Source: Arctopsyche grandis (Eukaryota > Arthropoda > Insecta > Trichoptera > Hydropsychidae). From it: 64,000 nt of DNA. Made by a program: the position numbers and the translations under genes. Shown piece by piece: positions 6,285 through 55,696 of this stretch (position 1 is its first letter; every line of letters begins with the position of its first letter). The stretch covers positions 13,444,501-13,508,500 of the forward strand of contig NC_135367.1 in NCBI RefSeq assembly GCF_051622035.1. Reading direction: 5' to 3'. Below the pieces are notes generated by a model, which did not search any database, was not told the DNA's origin, and saw only the letters and a list, made by a program, of their open reading frames with translations.

Positions 6285-6609
6285 CCTGCTGGTGCCCACT
6301 TTGGGAAATATAGGGATTGGGGAAGAAGTAATAGGAATGATGGAAGTAAATCTACTACCGCCTCCACTTCTCTGTCTCCAATTGAAGATGTGTCATCGAA
6401 TGTCCTGCGCCCTAACGTCACGTTCGCGGAGGCATGTTCTGGAGCTAGTTGCTTGACGCTCTCCATGGACACTTCTGCTACTGTTGGTGATTCGACTGTG
6501 GCAGCGGTCTCTGTGGCGTCGATCCATGCCGCTTCTCTTGCATCTTCTTCATTTACCCGTTCAAGTGCATCTATTACAACAGACACCATAATTTCTGGTC
6601 CTCATAGTC

Positions 6610-8190
6610 GTGATACTGTATTGTGATACTGCATTGACTGTTGGGGTTTCTTCTCCCTCTTCTGCTTTGTCTCCGTTGGCTGATCCTGTGACTGCTAAAC
6701 AGTCATTTCTTGCAACAAAGAGACTCACGCGCCAGACGGATAAATTGAAAATTGGTGCTATATTACCAAAACGTAGTGTTTGTGACGATATGGTGGCGCT
6801 GACCGAAACATGGTTAACGCCTTCGTTTTTAGATTCGGAATTATTTGACTCATCATGGACAGTACATCGTCGGGACAAAAAAGGACGAGGGGGTTGGGGA
6901 GTTATATTTGCTTATCGTATCTGGTTGCCATCTGTCAGTATGAAGAACTGTGGAACTCCTTCTGGTGAGGACTTATGGGTGAGAGTCGATTTTGTATCTT
7001 TGTTTTTTTGTGTTTTTTACATTCCGGCCGCTGCGAATGAGGATGTATATGACTTATTGTTTACGAATATGATGAATGTACGCGATTTTATGAATGAGCG
7101 TGACATTTTGTTAATAATGGGTGATTTTAATTTGCCTAGTACTGATTATTTCTTATTGCGACTTAGTACAGGTTGGTTCATTAGTCCAAGTATACTCGAT
7201 ATTATGTAAGTGAATAAATCTAATGTGTCGGCAACGATGATCCAATGCCCAAAAGAAACTGCGATCATCCCTGAGGACCTATGTATATCATGATACATTA
7301 CAAATTGAGCTTCTGTTTTTATCTTCTGTGAGAGCGGCTTCAGCTTGTTCATCTGTGGGGATTTCATCATTGCGATAGAATTTTGCTCGTATTGATTCTG
7401 AATTAATTTTTAATGAGGTTCGTGCTATTGACTGACGCCAAATGTACCTCATGAATACTGATGATGTTGTTGAATTTATGTATGAATCACTTTATAATAT
7501 ATTTGATAGTTATGTTCCTCGGTTCATCAGTTATCCTAATTCAGAACTACCTCGTCGGGTTTTCCCACCGCGGTTTGGGTACAAACTTATAAGAGATATA
7601 TACGTGCAAAATGGTTATCTCATAGAAGATGGAAACGTAGCCAATCATTTCGTGACTATGAGAAATTCCGGATTCTTAGGAAGATCGTGAAACGTGGTGT
7701 GCGTGAGCGATATACTGTCTGTCTCAAAGAGATGGAGAGTACTATCGCGAGTAATCCTCGCCACATTTTCAGATTGATTAGGAGTCTTATATTTCACATG
7801 GCCTTGAGCATTCAGTCTCATATAGTAATACAAATTATGAAGGTCTTGAAATCGCTAATGCTTTTGCTACATTTTTTAGCTCTGTCTTTGATCAGAGAAT
7901 ACCATCCCTTGATGCTAATTTGACTTCCCAAATTGGTGCTGAGGGTGTCGATATAGACATTCCACGGGTCTCGCTTGGAGATGTTAGGATGGCAATTTTG
8001 AAGCTGAAGGGGTCTGTTGGGCCTGATGGTGTGCCCCCTGAAGTATTAAAGGCGTGTTATAATTCGCTCTTAGAACCTCTCTTTAACCTTATTCTTGGTT
8101 CTGGTAATTATCCTGAAAAATGGAAATTATCTAGAGTCATTCCTATTCATAAAAGTGGCTCTAAAAATGACGACGTTAAATTATTCTATG
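6610..8190 (+). pseudogene. LINE ORF2 remnants, copy 1: endonuclease and start of reverse transcriptase
   Basis: Pieces in shifting frames: 6781-7180 has ALTETWL, FDSSWTVHRRD, SGEDLWVRVD and the catalytic GDFNLP of apurinic-type endonucleases; 7442-7690 has a linker region; 7920-8180 has the N-terminal reverse-transcriptase pattern GPDGVPPEVLK and WKLSRVIPIHKSGSK. The catalytic YADD box is absent because the copy ends first. The join between ORF1 and ORF2 has lost the YYQNVRGLRTK segment present in copy 2. Dead. Confidence 0.75.
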
Positions 8191-9693: not shown

Positions 9694-9757
9694 TGACCAT
9701 TGTGGCGCATTAGGAATTCCTGTAATGCTACAACGGTCCAAACTTTAAATAAATAAT
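9694..9757 (+). repeat. LINE 3' terminal hairpin and tail
   Basis: Stem GACCATTGTGGC (9695-9706) pairs with GCTACAACGGTC (9727-9738) with two wobble or mismatched positions. The loop contains GCATTAGGAATTCCTGTAATG. An AAATAAATAA tail follows. The same hairpin occurs at 10585-10627, 27334-27379 (reverse), 52536-52580 (reverse) and 52870-52913. Confidence 0.8.
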
Positions 9758-10650
9758 GCGATTGTGTGGAATCCGTATGAAGAAAATTACTCTCTTATGA
9801 TCGAAAAAGTGCAAAAAGCATTTCTTCGCTTTCTCTATAGGAAAGAGTTTGGGTATTACTCATATTTCTACCCTACTCCTTTCCTTTTGGGCATGCTTGG
9901 GTATAATTCCTTGAACTTCGGAGAAACTTGTCATTAATTCGTTTCGTTCTCCAGGTACGACGTGGTAATACGTCATGCCCGTTCTTGCTGGAACAGGTGG
10001 GACTTTATGTCCCTAATAACTATGTATGTGCGTGTTAGATATCATCATTTGATTGAGGTTGTACCTCTTGCTCGCACAGTTCTTTTTCGAATGGCTCTTA
10101 TTCCAAGAACTATTCGACTTCTCAATGAAATCGTTCCTGCTGTGCCTGAATGCGATATTTTCCACCTTGGTTAGCGTAGATTATCGGATTTTATTTTAAC
10201 ATTTATCTGATAAGCTGCGCTCATCATTATTTTCTTAATTTGAATGTGATGTATAAATGAAATCTTAATCTACTCTCTTCCATTTGGGCCTCGTGATTTT
10301 CTTTTATTTTTTATTTTTATTTTATTTATTTATTTTTTCTTTTGCCTTATGTACATTTTTACGTACTATTTTTCTTTTGTTCAATGTGAAACTAAGAATA
10401 GGATTTGAGGATTTTATTTATTTGATTTTTACACTTTGTTCATTTTTTTATGTATTATTTTTCTTTTGTTATTTATTTTTGTTTTTATTTTTATTTATCA
10501 TGTTTTTCTGCTTTTGCTTTTTTCTTTTTTATTTTATGTATTTTACTTATTTTTTTTTTGTTTTTCTTCTCTTTTCAAATGTAAGCCATTGTGGCGTATT
10601 AAGTTTTTCTGTAAAGCCACAATGGTCCAAAACTATAAATAAATAAATAA
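9758..10650 (+). mobile_element. LINE copy 3, 5'-truncated 3' end
   Basis: 9760-10170 encodes, with frameshifts, the C-terminal tail after the reverse transcriptase: WNPYEENY, IEKVQKAFLRFLYRK, then RTIRLLNEIVP. A T-rich 3' untranslated region follows, then the terminal hairpin (10585-10627) and a TAAATAAATAA tail. 10160-10650 matches 27309-27813 in reverse. The open frames over the T-rich part (10284-10646) are not genes. Confidence 0.75.
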
Positions 10651-16909: not shown

Positions 16910-17440
16910 TTTATTTCAAAATTAATATATCAGCAGCTTTAAAATGCAATTTATATGTTTTTGTGTGTTTATGTAAAGTGTGAAGTATCAGAAGACTTAC
17001 ACTATTATAATCTCCATATCGATGTTGGTTGTTCTATGTGGTCTCGAAAAATCTGAGAAGGTCCTTGCGAGTGTTGTTGGATATAGAATCCGCCGTAACT
17101 TAGAATCTGCTACGTTGTTTCGCAGTTGGTTTAAAAATTTAATTATTAAAAACTGAACTGTACGTCCAAACGTCACTAATTCACACAAGAACAATAATTG
17201 CTGATTCCCTCGGGAATGATAGATACTAAGATCTAATCAATAATCAATGATCACTAATAAGTCATTGATAAGCGAGGTACATAACAGTACATACATATAT
17301 ACCTGGAAGGCATAAAAGGTAAACCCTAATGCGCCATTCTGGCTAACTAAAAACATTGATGTATGTATAAATTTGCATTTTTCGAAATACTGAAAAACTC
17401 GAAATTTGCGAGAAATAGGTCAAAGTTGAAGAAATTTTAG

Positions 17441-27308: not shown

Positions 27309-27813
27309 ATATATTTATTTATTTAATAGTTTTGGACCATTGTGGCATTACAGGAAGAACCTAATGCGCCACAATGGCCTACATTTGAAAAATATATAAA
27401 AACATGATATAAAAACAAGTAAACTGTAAATAAAGGAAAAAAGCAAAAGCAGAAAACATGGTAAAATAAAATTACAAAAAAAGTAACAAAAGGAAAATAA
27501 TACATCATTCAGAGAGAAAAAAAAAAAAATAACAAAAGTGTAAAAATTAAAAATAAAATCCATAAATCCCATTCTTTGTTTACACTGATCAAAATTAAAA
27601 TAGTATATAAAAATGTACAAAAGAGAAAGAAAAAATAAAATAAAATAAAACAAAATATGAATAAAAAATAAAATCACAGCGAGGCCCAAATGGAAGAGAG
27701 TAGATTAAGATTCCACTCATTCATCACATTCAAATTAAGAAAGTAATGATGAGCGCAGGTTACCAGATAAATATGTTAAGATAATATCCGACAATCTACG
27801 CTCCCATACTATT
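27309..27813 (-). mobile_element. LINE 3' end, reverse orientation
   Basis: Matches 10160-10650 in reverse: TAAA tail, terminal hairpin (27334-27379), A-rich stretch and the GAGGCCCAAATGGAAGAGAGTAG segment. It ends near the position corresponding to the LINE coding end. Only untranslated 3' sequence remains; open frames here are artefacts of the A-rich tract. Confidence 0.8.
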
Positions 27814-34587: not shown

Positions 34588-37298
34588 CAGTGGCGTATAT
34601 TGGGTGTGTGCTAGGTGTGCGGCGCACACCCGTGAAAACCAAAGACCACATAAAGTAGTATTTTAATACAAAATAATGTGTTGTTGTATAAGCAGGCATT
34701 GATGTGTATGGTGTATTTACCGCGTGCGCTAAATGTATGGTGTATGGTGTGGTGTGCAGTCTGCAGCGTGTTGTGTGATGTGTGTATGTAGTTTGTGCGC
34801 CGCGACGAGAGAATACCTATGCCGTGCAGCAAATTGGTGGGTTTGGTTGGAGTGTGCAGGCGGATATTCGCTTGTATAGGTTTGTTCGCGATATTAAGAC
34901 GTACGGTGTGCTACGACTTCAGAGCACCGCGCAACAGTCGGCAATTGACCAATGCGATGCGGCACGTGGTCTCGTACTTTTTCGCACATTCGTATTTTTA
35001 TGGTCATATTATTACCTCTAATAACTAATAATGGCTAACAGTGTTCAAGACATTTTAACTATTCCGTTTTCAAATAGAAGTTTTGAGATAAAATTAAAAA
35101 TAATTAAAGATGGGAAACCGTGTCCGTCTCTTCCAAATTTATCCAGTTTGCATAAAGAAAAAACAAAAGTTTACACTAGACATTTTTGCGTTTCAAATTA
35201 TAAAAAATTCGAATGGATTACAGGCTGTGAAATTCGATCCAAACTTTTCTGCTGGCCATGTTTATTGTTCTCCAAAGATATTAATGTGTGGAACAAAGAA
35301 GGATTTGCTGATCTCAACCATTTGACAGCAGCACTGAAGAAACACGAAGGATCGCAGGCACACGTTCAATCATTTCTTTCCATACAAATGTTTGGCAAAC
35401 AACGAATCGACGTATTAATTGACAGTCAACGTAAAGCCGAAATAAGTCGACATAATGAACAAGTAAATAAAAATAGAGATGTTTTAAAACGAATTATTAA
35501 CGCAATAATCTATCTAGGAAAACAAGAACTGTCCCTGCGAGGTCACGACGAGTCATGTAATTCCGTAAACAAAGGCAATTACATTGAATATCTAAATGCT
35601 CTTCGAGAATATGATTCTGTTTTAGATACTCATTTAAATACTGCTACTACCTTTCGTGGTACTTCTCCAAGTATACAAAATGACATAATCGAAGCAATCT
35701 CTCATGTTATTAAAGTTCATATAAAAAATGAAGTAGAGTCAGCAAGTTTTGTTGCTATTATTCTCGATGAAACTTCAGATATAATGACAAAATCACAGCT
35801 CTCAACAGTTTTACGTTTTGTATGTAAAGGCAATGTACATGAACGGTTTATTAGTTTTACAGACGTTAGTGCTGATAAAACATCTAATGGTCTATTCTAA
35901 TGGTGAACATAGTTGAAGAATTTAAAATTCAAGACAAATTGGTTGGACAGACTTATGGTGGAGCAAGTGTAATGAGTGGACACGTAAATGGTTTGCAATC
36001 CAAAGTCCTCAATGCTTATCCTTTTGCTCTTTTTACACACTGTTATGCTCATGTATTGAATTTAGTATTGCAGCAAGGTCTTTCTGATATTAAAGAAAGT
36101 AAATCATTTTTTCAAACTTTAAATGGATTGTCTACATACTTTTCAAAATCTTCCAAAAGAGTATTCGCTTTACAGGAATTTGTGACAAAAAGACTTCCCT
36201 CTGTAGCACCCACAAGGTGGAATTTTACATCTCGTTTAAGTAGCACAGTACAACAATACAGAAGTCAATTTACATATTTTTTTTCGACATGTTATAGAAA
36301 ATTGTGAATTATGGGACACAGATACTGTTATAAAAGCACGAGGGTTTTTAGGCTTTTTAGAGGATTTTCAAACAATTAAACTTCTTCAATTTTTTTCAAA
36401 ACTGTTTGGAATAACTGATGTTTTGTATAACATTCTTCAATCTAAATCTTCGGACGTTTTATATTGTTGTAAAAAAATTAATGATGTTTTGCAGCAACTG
36501 AAATACGAAAGGTATAATAATTTTGAAATGTTATGGAATAATTATTTAAATGAAAAAAATGATGATCATGATCGTAGGCCACAAAGATTAAAAAATTATT
36601 CAGAAGTAGAAGATAAAACTTCATTTCGTCAATTATATTTCAAAATAGTTGATAGCATAATCGCACAAGTCGAATGTAGATATTCTTCACTTTCCAAATT
36701 AGAATATTTCCACCTTCTTTGTAATGATAAATATGACGAATATAAAGAAAATTTTCCAAATGTTTTAATTAATAAATTAAAAGATTTTTATGGATCACTG
36801 TTTGATTATATTCGATTGAAAAACGAACTCATTGTGCTATATTCCAGCTCTGAATTTTCAGAGAAACCTGTTCATGAATTAATACAATTCATGACAAAAA
36901 ATAACCTCGAATCTGGTTTTAAAGAGGTGTTTAAGCTGGGAGAATTAATATTAACGATACCAAGCAGTACAGCTTCAGCAGAACGGTCTTTTTCGGCGCT
37001 GAAAAGAATAAAAACTTGCTATAGAGGTACGCAAGGTCAAGATAGATTATGTGGCCTTAGCTTAATTTCAATAGAAAAAAAGTTATTGGTGGAATTAAAA
37101 CAGAAAGACACATTCTATGCAGACGTGATTGAAAAGTTTATGTCTCAGAAACGTCGCATTGAACTTATGTATAAATAACTAATAAATTAAACATTTTTGT
37201 AATGCAAAACGAGTATTTTTTTTTAATTGCTAATTTTATACCCTACGCCCTACGGCATACACAGCACACCCGGTATTAACACCCACCGTCCGCCACTG
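34588..37298 (+). mobile_element. Near-complete hAT element (ZMYM1-like), 2711 bp
   Basis: It starts CAGTGGCGTATATTGGGTG and ends CACCCACCGTCCGCCACTG. It is flanked by a perfect 8-bp target duplication ATGTACAT (34580-34587 and 37299-37306). It contains a full-length but twice-frameshifted transposase. The exact duplication and largely open reading frames suggest recent activity. Confidence 0.95.
35031..37178 (+). pseudogene. hAT transposase (ZMYM1-like), two frameshifts
   Basis: Three consecutive frames make one protein of about 710 residues: 35031-35900, 35900-36307, and about 36291-37178. Domain order: N-terminal TTF/BED-like zinc finger (FEWITGCEIR, FCWPCLLFSKD, HLTAALKKHEGSQAH), linker with GHDES, first catalytic aspartate block VAIILDETSDIMTKSQL, the TYGGASVMSG and CYAHVLNLVLQQ segments of the RNase-H-like core, an insertion, then the C-terminal dimerisation block SSTASAERSFSALKRIK. 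The frame changes before MVNIVEEF (near 35898) and returns in a T run near 36277-36284. The two shifts cancel, so only the middle third is out of frame. It cuts and pastes hAT elements; this copy would not give full-length protein unless the shifts are sequencing errors. Confidence 0.9.
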
Positions 37299-52502: not shown

Positions 52503-52760
52503 ATTTATTTATTTATTTATTTATTTAATAGTTTTGGACCATTGTGGCATTACAGGAAGAACCTAATGCGCCACAATGGCCTACATTTGAAAAATATATA
52601 AAAACATGATATAAAAACAAGTAAACTGTAAATAAAGGAAAAAAGCAAAAGCAGAAAATATGGTAAAATAAAATAATAAAAAAAAAGTAACAAAAGGAAA
52701 ATAATAAATCATTCAGAGAGAAAAAAAAATAACAAAAGTGTAAAAATTATTATTTTTTAA
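52503..52760 (-). mobile_element. LINE 3' tail, reverse orientation, severely truncated
   Basis: TTTATTTATTTATTTA tail, then the hairpin GGACCATTGTGGC..GCCACAATGGCC and an A-rich stretch nearly identical to 27334-27545. It lacks the more distal part. Confidence 0.85.
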
Positions 52761-52867: not shown

Positions 52868-52945
52868 TTGACCATTGTGGCGCTTTAGGAATTCCTGTTA
52901 TGTCACAATGGTCTGTTTAGAATAAAATAAATAAATAATTATGAA
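52868..52945 (+). mobile_element. LINE 3' tail, forward orientation, hairpin only
   Basis: GACCATTGTGGC (52870-52881) pairs with GTCACAATGGTC (52902-52913); then AATAAAATAAATAAATAA. Only the last 80 bp of the LINE. Confidence 0.75.
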
Positions 52946-53204
52946 AATAAGATTCGTTTCAACCGTATCTCTGAAGAGGACGGCACTTTGAACTACATAT
53001 GTATGTATGTCGAAGGAGGGCTCATACGTAGTCGCGGGACGTCACTGAACCCCTGAATGTCTATAGTGAAATAAAACATAGAAAAGCCTTGTAAAAATGG
53101 TCACAGCTTAAAAATGGCACGAGGATGTGGGAAGATTTATCCAATCACCGTCTCCGCAATGGAACTGCACTTTAATAATTCAGTTTGGCTTCAGATTGTC
53201 ATAA

Positions 53205-53500
53205 AGTCAGCATCATAACTCGGTGGTTGTATTAATGCTAACCACCAAGAGGTTCCCGAGTTCAAGCCCTAGGTTGGCCTCTATTGAAAATAATTTATTC
53301 AGAAGTATTTCTGTAGTAGTGATGTCAGAATTGAATATTTGTGATTTCATGTCAACCGTTTGCTATCGGAGTTTGCCAAGTTATTTGATTTCTTTGTTGA
53401 AACAGTTCCTCAAAAAATTGGCAAAACCATCCTACCCACTATTTCAGCACTATTTGAATATGATTTCAAATTTATAATCTTTAAATTTATATATGAAAAA
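53205..53500 (+). mobile_element. tRNA-derived SINE, copy 1
   Basis: An A-box-like TAACTCGGTGGTTG (53216) and a B-box-like GAGTTCAAGCC (53258) are spaced as in tRNA genes. A body with TCGGAGTTTGCCAA and TTGTTGAAACAGTTCC is shared with copy 2. No functional tRNA is implied. The open frame here is not coding. Confidence 0.65.
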
Positions 53501-53704
53501 GTTTAATACCATAGGTGTCGCTGAGGGGCAGCCCATAATATCAACATGGGAAAATATAAATTTAAAAAATATAAATATACACAAGATACCCATTAAGGCA
53601 ATCCCGAGTAACAAATAACAAGCAAAAAAACTTTATCTACGTAAAAAACCAGGTGAAACGTATAAGAGGTTAGTAAAAAAAGGGTTTATCTACGAAGCTT
53701 ATAA

Positions 53705-54163
53705 TAAGCCATATAGCCAGCAGCATAGCTCGGACGTTAAGCTTCTGCTTACTGTCAAGAAGGTGCCGGGTTCTATCCCTGAATGAAAATGAATTTTTCA
53801 GAGTATGCTGTTGGTCAGACCTGGATTTGTGACTCCAGGTTGATCGTTTCCTATCAGAGTTTGCCAATTTTCTCTGATTTCATTGTTGAAACGGTTCCCG
53901 GAAAAAAAAATTGGCTAAAAATCCTTCCTACCTACTATGTCACCACTATTTGAAATTTGATGGATGTACAATAAAATTTATGTACAATTCATAGATGTCT
54001 CGTTAATTTGCGAGTTTTTTCAGTGTCTCGCAATTCAACGACTTATAATAAAAAATGCTGCATTTGTATTTGTAATTGGCCAGGAAGGCGCATTGGGATT
54101 TTCCTGTAAGGCCTTCCTGGTATATATGTAAAATAAAAATAAATAAATAAATAAATAAATAAA
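53705..54163 (+). mobile_element. tRNA-derived SINE with LINE-like hairpin tail, copy 2
   Basis: A box TAGCTCGGACGTTAAG (53726) and B box GGGTTCTATCCC (53768), 43 bp apart. The body (TCAGAGTTTGCCAATTTT, TTGTTGAAACGGTTCC) matches copy 1. It ends with a hairpin CCAGGAAGGC (54080-54089) / GCCTTCCTGG (54111-54120) whose loop, GCATTGGGATTTTCCTGTAA, matches the LINE loop, then (AAAT)n. RNA polymerase III transcription and LINE-driven mobilisation are inferred. Confidence 0.75.
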
Positions 54164-55696
54164 ATAACAAAACAATTTTTCCCTGATGAGTATCCGTAGT
54201 CTACTCATAAGTCAATGAATAAAAATATTAATGATGTTATTATTAAATAGTAAATTAAGATGTGTATTGAGATTGTGTCACTGGCAACACTGAAAAATTA
54301 TTCATAAATAGTTAATGAATAATAAATATTAAGCAAACATAATGTATCATAGTAAATAGTTAAGGCCAGTCTTTAAACTTTGAATTAGATTTTTATGAAT
54401 TGAAGCTGTTTGATTCGTTGTATTGCAGTCCTATTCGAGGGATGCCTTCGAGCATCAGGCCTTGACTTTATTCTCATTGAAGTTCGCAATTACTCAAGCG
54501 CAACTGGGTACACACAGAATGCAATTGTTAACGATTTGTCACGCTATACAACTTAAAATATACACTGAGTGTACAATGTGTGTATAGCGCAATGTGTATT
54601 AAAATATTTATAACTTGAGATCGTGCGCGAGATTCAAAATGCTTGCTTAGATCTTAAACAATAGGGAGCAGAGGTCGCAGGACAGGAAGTACATACATAT
54701 GATGGCAAAGGTTAATATGTATGGTGTTGAATCATCAAGACAGATGGTTCACGATTCCGTGAACCCAGAAGAAAAATTGTCCAGTCGATAATTGTACAGT
54801 CAATGTTGGAACTGTACTCTGGAACATTCCACGACATCATAATCCTATTTTTCAGCTGTTGCTTGCCATATTTTTATGTATCAGGTGATTGGCCACAGAC
54901 ATGCAAGCAGATTTTTGACCATTGTATACATATTATATATTGTAATAAAATAATAACGGAGATCATATTTTTTGTACATATTTATTTTGTACAAATATTT
55001 AGGGTATTTTCAGTTTCCCAAGAAACGAAAGTTTTTGTTTGGCAAGGCTATTATTATTGTTTATATAGCATTTATCAAGCCGACACAAAACAGTTAAACG
55101 ACAAAAAAGTTTTAGCAAGTATGTATGTGAAATATCGTATCATCTTTTTTATTGTCTGTTTCATGCAGTGCTAAAAACTCTTCTATCGTGCTGAAAATAA
55201 TCTTTTTCATATAATCATTCCATAATTTACGTTAACTTACAATCATCAGACAAGAACCGAGGTCACCGCAATAGTTTTTCTCCAATGCTTATGCGAGAAT
55301 CATATCATTCGACTAGTCTTACAATATTTTTCGAAATTTAGCGAATTCGTTCAGCCAATTAGATGGCCGCATTATCTCAGAAGAAAATATATACATACAT
55401 ATGTACATATTAAAATATATACAAAAAGTACATACATATTACATCGGATTAAAAACAATTGTTACTTTATTAGGCCATTTTCAGGATGAGAGCGGCCTCC
55501 CTACGTCGTCGTGTATTTGTGCGTAAAATTGTGTCTTCTCATTTCCACTGTATGTCCATAAATCGACTTTAAATTGATTAATTAATTATTATTTATTATT
55601 TAGAATTATTATTATATGTAAATATGTTATTATTACTAGGTCATTATATTATATTTATTTATTTTATCATTCATTTTTATTATCTAAATATATATT
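54164..55696. other. Non-coding, nothing recognised
   Basis: The 123-codon open frame at 54803-55174 has low-complexity hydrophobic composition and no domain; I do not call it a gene. Confidence 0.45.

Follow-up and report, generated by a model that had tools for sequence, protein, structure and literature searches.

We analysed a window of 64,000 nt on contig NC_135367.1 of the caddisfly Arctopsyche grandis. It harbours a SINE with an older relative just upstream, and 3' hairpins of LINEs on both strands. The features are given in window coordinates.

53716-54172, + strand: SINE1 copy with tRNA-like head, central domain, AT-rich spacer, 3' hairpin and A/T repeat tail
53806-53905, + strand: central domain common to S1 and the SINE bodies S2, S4, S5 and S6 (blastn, 75-88% over 80-112 nt)
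54078-54122, + strand: SINE 3' hairpin with lower stem CCAGGAAGGC/GCCTTCCTGG, internal loop, upper stem and 3-nt loop
54123-54172, + strand: post-hairpin TATATGTA, then the A/T repeat tail of SINE1 (read from the sequence)
53203-53578, + strand: older SINE1-like copy, just upstream of the SINE1 at 53716 and on the same strand
52870-52913, + strand: LINE C-type 3' hairpin CCATTGTGGC/GTCACAATGG (type taken from copies found by protein match)
52537-52581, - strand: LINE B-type 3' hairpin, exact in both arms
27335-27379, - strand: LINE B-type 3' hairpin, exact in both arms
10584-10627, + strand: LINE D-type 3' hairpin
9695-9738, + strand: LINE A-type 3' hairpin with two changes in the 3' arm
6592-7209, + strand: remnant of a LINE endonuclease domain (Pfam PF03372, E 2.1e-5, 24.8 bits against a cut-off of 24.5)
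17300-17344, - strand: decayed CCAGGAAGGC-class hairpin (covariance model, E 8.5e-7)

A sequence-only reading of this DNA had described the SINE as ending in a CCAGGAAGGC/GCCTTCCTGG hairpin with a tip similar to that of the LINEs. Both arms are indeed exact (CCAGGAAGGC at 54080-54089, GCCTTCCTGG at 54111-54120) and form the sole exact pair of such kind in the window. The hairpin folds with -26.2 kcal/mol (z -4.35) and is found by the covariance model at E 5.8e-17, the sequence itself being among the model rows. Likewise, the CCATTGTGGC hairpin assigned to five LINE tails is present at 9695, 10584, 27335, 52537 and 52870, with E-values of 6e-17 to 8e-13, three of the five being identical to model rows. 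Both arms are exact in three of them; the inexact 3' arms read GCTACAACGG at 9697 and GTCACAATGG at 52872. The one common loop that had been ascribed to these hairpins dissolves into four loop types (A GCATTAGGAATTCCTGTAAT, B GCATTAGGTTCTTCCTGTAAT, C GCTTTAGGAATTCCTGTTAT, D GTATTAAGTTTTTCTGTAAA). Allowing up to one mismatch, GCCACAATGG matches the window 15 times against 2.2 expected, and 15 or more matches occur in 0/100 shuffles. Apart from the seven hairpins, the best remaining covariance-model match in the window has E 0.018.

The older copy at 53203-53578 is 74% identical to S1 (L097) over 270 nt and 80% to L065 over 100 nt. Its 3' end differs from that of SINE1, is decayed and resembles L065 1091-1136; with a fold z of 0.09 the hairpin is not stable. 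Judged by eye, the hairpin at 17300-17344 is probably an old SINE end; the central domain was looked for upstream of it and not found. Upstream of the D-type hairpin at 10584, pieces resemble by eye the C-terminus of a LINE reverse transcriptase. A DUF4371 domain, of a kind linked to hAT-type transposases, lies at 35025-35900 on the + strand (E 3.3e-18); open frames reaching 37178 may continue it.

The genome (475.7 Mb, 189 contigs) was searched with the hairpin patterns, using reversed patterns as controls. There are 985 exact matches to the LINE-type loop pattern and 377 to the CCAGGAAGGC-plus-loop pattern, each with 0 matches for the reversed pattern, and 2071 matches to GGC-loop-GCC. When a motif search left the outer seven stem pairs unconstrained, another stem class emerged, TACACTCGTC/GACGAGTGTA, the third one, whose tip is GCATTGGAGCGATCTGTAAT and which has 605 exact matches. 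The exact tip sits on stems unlike both first classes at merely 7 and 3 places genome-wide, and further stems surfaced only after the tip was allowed to vary. Of 1711 candidate places for SINE1, 40 were scored, among them the window copy, and all of these are 99-100% identical. Viral contigs searched with the hairpin and with the LINE protein gave no match. A search of genome contigs gave 10 loci at 25-44% identity, which were left unused.

The predicted folds concur in a lower stem of 10-13 bp, an upper stem of 4-5 bp and a terminal loop of 3-5 nt. The internal loop consists of CAU or CUU facing UAA or UUA, and is 4x4 or 5x4 in some SINEs. The tip can be written as ~CAUU-R-G-R ... CUGUAA, whereby the upper stem opens with U.G and the CAU/UAA-like internal loop flanks it. 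A G.U pair drawn as the innermost pair of the lower stem lacks pairing in 11/18 rows. Fold z ranges from -3.1 to -7.6 for S1, S2, S4, S5 and LINE A, B, C and Y (LINE Y, -3.06), and the fold of LINE X is modest (z -2.55, equalled by 6/200 shuffles). In one set of eight sequences, seven have z -4.3 to -7.6; the eighth, L017, a candidate for an extra stem class, folds weakly (z -1.39) and was excluded from the counts.

LINE C was collected using a LINE fragment as protein query, 150 of 10,709 candidates being scored. Beyond the query's own place the matches are 82-85% identical; a single stop falls within a match, and open frames reach up to 988 residues. Nineteen of 20 3' ends finish CCATTGTGGC-...-GCCACAATGG plus AAAT-type repeats, two of them with one change in the 5' arm; the remaining one (L111) lacks this ending. 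The LINE C ORF2 has an RVT_1 domain (E 9.2e-27). Its 939-residue stretch gave no endonuclease match, and an endonuclease domain was detected in some of the LINE C relatives listed. Among the best 120 of 454, these relatives are unnamed insect proteins of at most 49% identity over 99% of the query, with moths and butterflies among the hosts.

A LINE family with the CCAGGAAGG stem, which the sequence-only reading had named as the element to look for, exists. The hairpin-pattern search for a CCAGGAAGGC LINE returned mostly SINEs, and the family, LINE Y, was obtained via the reverse transcriptase. The route led over L010, where an old LINE remnant with broken frames (34-45% to LINE C ORF2, E 3e-29) is followed by a CCAGGAAGGC hairpin 42 nt past its last open frame. 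A protein search with its own 145-residue open frame, scoring 150 of 6,507 candidates, found L010 as a single copy of its kind, and it might be a truncated SINE beside a LINE. The same search yielded two abundant families, LINE X (62-68% identity to the query, frames of up to 965 residues) and LINE Y (50-52%, many frames of 979 residues and a few longer). Copies of both were picked by protein match and frame length, and later stretches were positioned from the place of the hairpin in the first copy.

LINE X ends in CCACAGTGTC-ATATTGGGGTGACCTGTAAA-GACTCTGTGG in 6/6 copies. LINE Y ends in CCAGGAAGGT-GCATTGGGTTTACCTGTTAG-GCCTTCTTGG in 7/8 copies with differing flanks; for L181 the hairpin is absent from the stretch examined. 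AAAT-type repeats follow the hairpin in LINE C, X and Y. A covariance model that predates X and Y matches 13/14 of their ends, with E 3.5e-11 for X, whose stem was new to the model, and E 1.1e-11 for Y, whose stem class was already in it. Sampling gave tails that are 99.6-100% alike in LINE C, X and Y and 96.8% alike in the C1 sample of SINE1; because copies entered the samples as best or exact matches, these figures are biased to young copies. A further LINE remnant, L040, is present in one copy and seemingly (by eye) carries a reverse-oriented SINE between its coding end and a CTAGTGTGAC hairpin.

The SINEs show a modular organisation. Hairpins of the CCAGGAAGGC class terminate at least three bodies, S1 (the window copy), S2 (L074-L081) and S4 (most of L086-L095), and TACACTCGTC-stem hairpins terminate two more, S5 and S6. 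A word search found the central domain in 18/20 TACACTCGTC-class copies examined; L140 and L145 resemble, by eye, truncated copies. Where 330 nt or more of upstream sequence was available, for 46 class-2 hairpins, the domain is present in 38 and absent in 8, L010 being one of the 8. Four rare CCAGGAAGGC-class variants are SINE-like copies by eye. The five bodies have a common central domain and either a CCAGGAAGGC or a TACACTCGTC tail, so that the ~50-nt tail looks exchangeable. Moreover, S6 (L156) matches S2 (L074) over 313 nt at 75%, from -333 to -34 relative to the hairpin, with differing hairpins, and the S6 tail matches the S5 tail from -1 to +47/+48 at 90-96%. A body like S2 with a tail like S5 argues that the hairpin and a few nucleotides move as a unit. 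In a single copy, on the - strand of L001 (~1472-1733), 108 nt of SINE5 central domain (91%) run into a LINE A 3' end of 139-174 nt including the hairpin (88-94%); this junction has the look of a chimera made by template switching.

At least three kinds of head occur, with those of S4 and S6 clearly alike and that of S2 weakly similar to both. B-box-like words with up to 2 changes are found in 5/5 heads and A-box-like words in 4/5. ARAGORN reported a tRNA in 0/14 SINE loci, and Rfam none in 8 SINE loci, where the matches were unrelated models below their cut-offs. Flanks of SINE1 share a word of at least 10 nt in 9/58 cases, two being TA repeats, compared to 4.4% in controls. The mean shared word is 7.6 versus 6.2 in controls, a weak excess with no clear target-site duplications.

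The covariation of the lower stem was evaluated against shuffles, which ignore the relatedness of the rows. In alignment A3 (16 tails) 94.2% of the cells are paired versus 68.9% in shuffles, 68 cells versus 23.8 carry double changes, and the score is 0.723 versus 0.245; 0/500 shuffles reach any of these values. Pairs with a double change (9 versus 8.6, 305/500) and pair types (22 versus 22.5, 389/500) are not above shuffles. In alignment A4 (18 family tails) 94.4% of the cells are paired versus 70.4%, with 66 versus 20.2 double-change cells and a score of 0.729 versus 0.242 (0/500 each). Pairs with a double change (9 versus 7.7, 102/500) and pair types (27 versus 25.9, 183/500) again do not exceed shuffles, and sliding the partner strand lowers the pairing to 34-54%. 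A4 adds LINE_X, LINE_Y, L010, L040, L020 and L002 to A3 and lacks LINE_E, S1old_b, S6_L027 and old3_L068; these four rows either nearly duplicate another row or stand for one old copy, and three of them have lower-stem cells that do not pair. L010 is one A4 row and carries no weight on its own. L020, L040 and L002 came from a structure model and L025 and L068 from a pairing scan, both tilted to paired rows; protein matches led to LINE C, X and Y, sequence matches to classes 2 and 3. The seven LINE tails taken separately (A5) show 5 pairs with double changes versus 1.8 in shuffles (3/500) and a score of 0.441 versus 0.225 (0/500).

The claim that both sides of the stem changed together thus holds between families, as A3, A4 and A5 show. 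We estimate about four independent stem replacements; since such switches are few, the row counts overstate the covariation evidence. Covariation across genomic copies, which had been proposed as a check, is not seen: within classes, 0/950 cells show a compensated two-sided change (95 copies: 33 + 38 + 24; 9 of 104 aligned rows fitted no class and were left out). The stem switch therefore happened between families. Individual copies are the wrong level for such a comparison, because inserted copies decay freely.

Most likely, by analogy with known elements, it is the tip that the LINE reverse transcriptase reads, and the lower stem has only to be paired. We are fairly confident that the hairpin is the 3'-terminal recognition element of an endonuclease/reverse-transcriptase LINE clade in which the tip is largely kept and the lower stem is free as long as it pairs. 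The LINE protein would bind the hairpin tip, whereupon target-primed reverse transcription would start. The letters of the 10-bp lower stem would not be read, pairing alone being required. Both stem sides would change jointly, giving each LINE family its own stem (A/B/C/D CCATTGTGGC, X CCACAGTGTC, Y CCAGGAAGGT), with the tip largely retained across the LINE clade. SINEs may have acquired their tails through template switching from LINE RNA. The sequences, the 3' ends of the LINEs found by protein, the covariation between families and the module boundaries are the observed part of this model; tip binding, stem indifference and template switching are what we infer.

A conserved terminal hairpin would also suit a role in transcript 3' end formation, stability, export or RNP packaging instead of reverse-transcriptase binding, and our own evidence on this point comes from sequence. 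Such a role is nevertheless unlikely. SINE RNA (presumably Pol III) and LINE RNA (presumably Pol II) have few such steps in common, and the LINE enzyme is what both must use. Moreover, ORF2 protein binds the hairpin in the same kind of system, according to the part of PMC4176376 considered here.

The SINE had been read as reusing a LINE tail. This stands with respect to LINE Y and is not supported for the CCATTGTGGC LINEs of the window: tails of S1, S2 and S4 score 40-53 against LINE Y and 43-50 against L010, compared to 19-28 against LINE A, B, C and X. For S4 and LINE Y, 75/87 positions are identical, spanning -34 to +57 around the hairpin start. On sequence grounds, the tail in S1, S2 and S4 appears to be that of LINE Y or of a near relative, so that the earlier interpretation is partly supported, right in kind and wrong on the donor. 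A CCATTGTGGC LINE as the source of the SINE tail, with both stem sides altered later within the SINE lineage, is very improbable. The tip is partly common and young SINE1 shares TTCCTG with LINE A/B, but LINE Y has the SINE stem and matches beyond it, which largely refutes a CCATTGTGGC donor already. Furthermore, the older SINE1 copies examined, S2 and S4 carry the LINE Y tip TTTACCTG/TTACCTG and not that of LINE A/B. The S5 tail has no good LINE match (best score 22, LINE X), and a LINE bearing the TACACTCGTC tail, i.e. a partner of S5/S6, was not found among the LINEs recovered in this genome.

That the stem classes have separate origins, as unrelated palindromes, and came to have similar tips by convergence is very unlikely: the CCATTGTGGC and TACACTCGTC stems do have merely two pairs in common and tips agree in merely 9-15 of 20 letters across stem classes (LINE A versus C, 18 of 20), but the layout and the place before the A/T repeat are identical, the tips of LINE Y and SINE4 agree in 19 of 20 letters, and LINEs A-C, X and Y plus two remnants fall in one RT group.

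Recognition of a kept tip on a free but paired stem may be taken one step further. The tails could act as interchangeable addresses, with a clade-wide tip code, stems replaced wholesale, ~50-nt cassettes shuffled among SINE bodies, one LINE protein cross-mobilising several stems and SINE bodies outliving their LINE by a change of cassette. We put this forward tentatively, as a possibility rather than an expectation.

Eel UnaL2 has a SINE partner named UnaSINE1. UnaL2 and the zebrafish L2-clade elements ZfL2-1 and ZfL2-2 resemble the caddisfly elements by a 3'-terminal stem-loop followed by short repeats, as far as the part of PMC4176376 considered here goes. Swapping the ZfL2-1 stem for that of ZfL2-2 kept about half of the activity, replacing the ZfL2-1 loop cut it dramatically, and in ZfL2-2 a stem replacement worked and an unpaired stem failed (PMC4176376). 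A kept tip on a free paired stem is what this rule predicts. In contrast to those elements, to which we liken ours by the 3' end and not by clade, the caddisfly shows natural stem replacement in at least three LINE families and in other hosts. Plant L1-clade LINEs and monocot SINEs have a common terminal hairpin with conserved loop letters and compensatory stem changes, five compensatory mutations being marked in the legend of Figure 8 (PMC3747384, in the part considered). In the caddisfly, unlike in the plant case, most of the 10-bp stem is replaced between families and related SINE bodies occur with two tails. Ohshima is said to have treated the plant L1/SINE hairpin as well, in 2012. Given the ZfL2 and plant precedents, this kind of hairpin is therefore already known.

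Lepidoptera are the sister order of caddisflies. ZenoSINE/Zenon and other lepidopteran pairs are, like the caddisfly elements, insect SINEs with LINE-like 3' tails, according to the parts of PMC6685494 and PMC8010984 considered here. The main text of PMC6685494 lacks the words hairpin and secondary structure, and that of PMC8010984 the word stem. As far as our searches show, the caddisfly LINE clade with its SINE set, the stem replacement among three LINE families and the related SINE bodies with alternative tails are new. The Arctopsyche hairpin elements were not found in the literature on Trichoptera SINEs and LINEs that we covered, most subscription journals lying outside this coverage, and the part of the main text of PMC8881205 considered mentions neither Arctopsyche nor hairpin.

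As in SINE-LINE pairs of the stringent type, S1, S2 and S4 have a 3'-terminal sequence in common with LINE Y, including the hairpin, and a simple repeat follows the hairpin in both (A/T in the SINEs, AAAT-type in LINE C, X and Y); no such common sequence with a LINE was found for S5/S6. The LINEs encode, as that type implies, reverse transcriptase (RVT_1) and endonuclease (the PF03372 remnant and some relatives). CORE, V, Deu, Ceph and MetaSINE are SINE superfamilies with a conserved central domain. By layout alone the caddisfly SINEs are like them, one central domain lying beneath different tRNA-like heads, with changing tails.

To our knowledge, what a LINE reverse transcriptase reads in its template has been detailed for few elements. 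Arctopsyche offers a natural experiment: related tips on different stems are borne by five SINE bodies and by three LINE families, the sampled copies of each LINE family being nearly identical. The idea that the tip is read and the stem only paired is therefore directly testable with natural pieces. Related SINE bodies with two alternative tails suggest one way in which SINEs may survive the loss of their helper LINEs. When LINE 3' ends are annotated, the tip combined with pairing makes a useful probe in cases that sequence alone misses.

Some minor observations concern single loci. A LINE C copy (L113 126-269, - strand) has two tandem hairpins with starts 100 nt apart. Similar tips on other stems precede A/T repeats at L002 1756-1800, L020 1964-2007 and L065 1091-1136, L020 looking like an old LINE X end. 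Of the first 20 SINE1 copies in the list, 16 follow an ATA, a hint of a preferred target. Two very short insertions, a SINE2 end cut just 5' of the hairpin (L039 1081-1126, + strand) and a LINE B end cut inside the stem (L131 ~31-60, + strand), look like little beyond hairpin and tail. On contig C2 (857259-1366601), ten SINE4-type hairpins of the same variant are listed 29-79 kb apart on one strand, suggesting a large segmental array.
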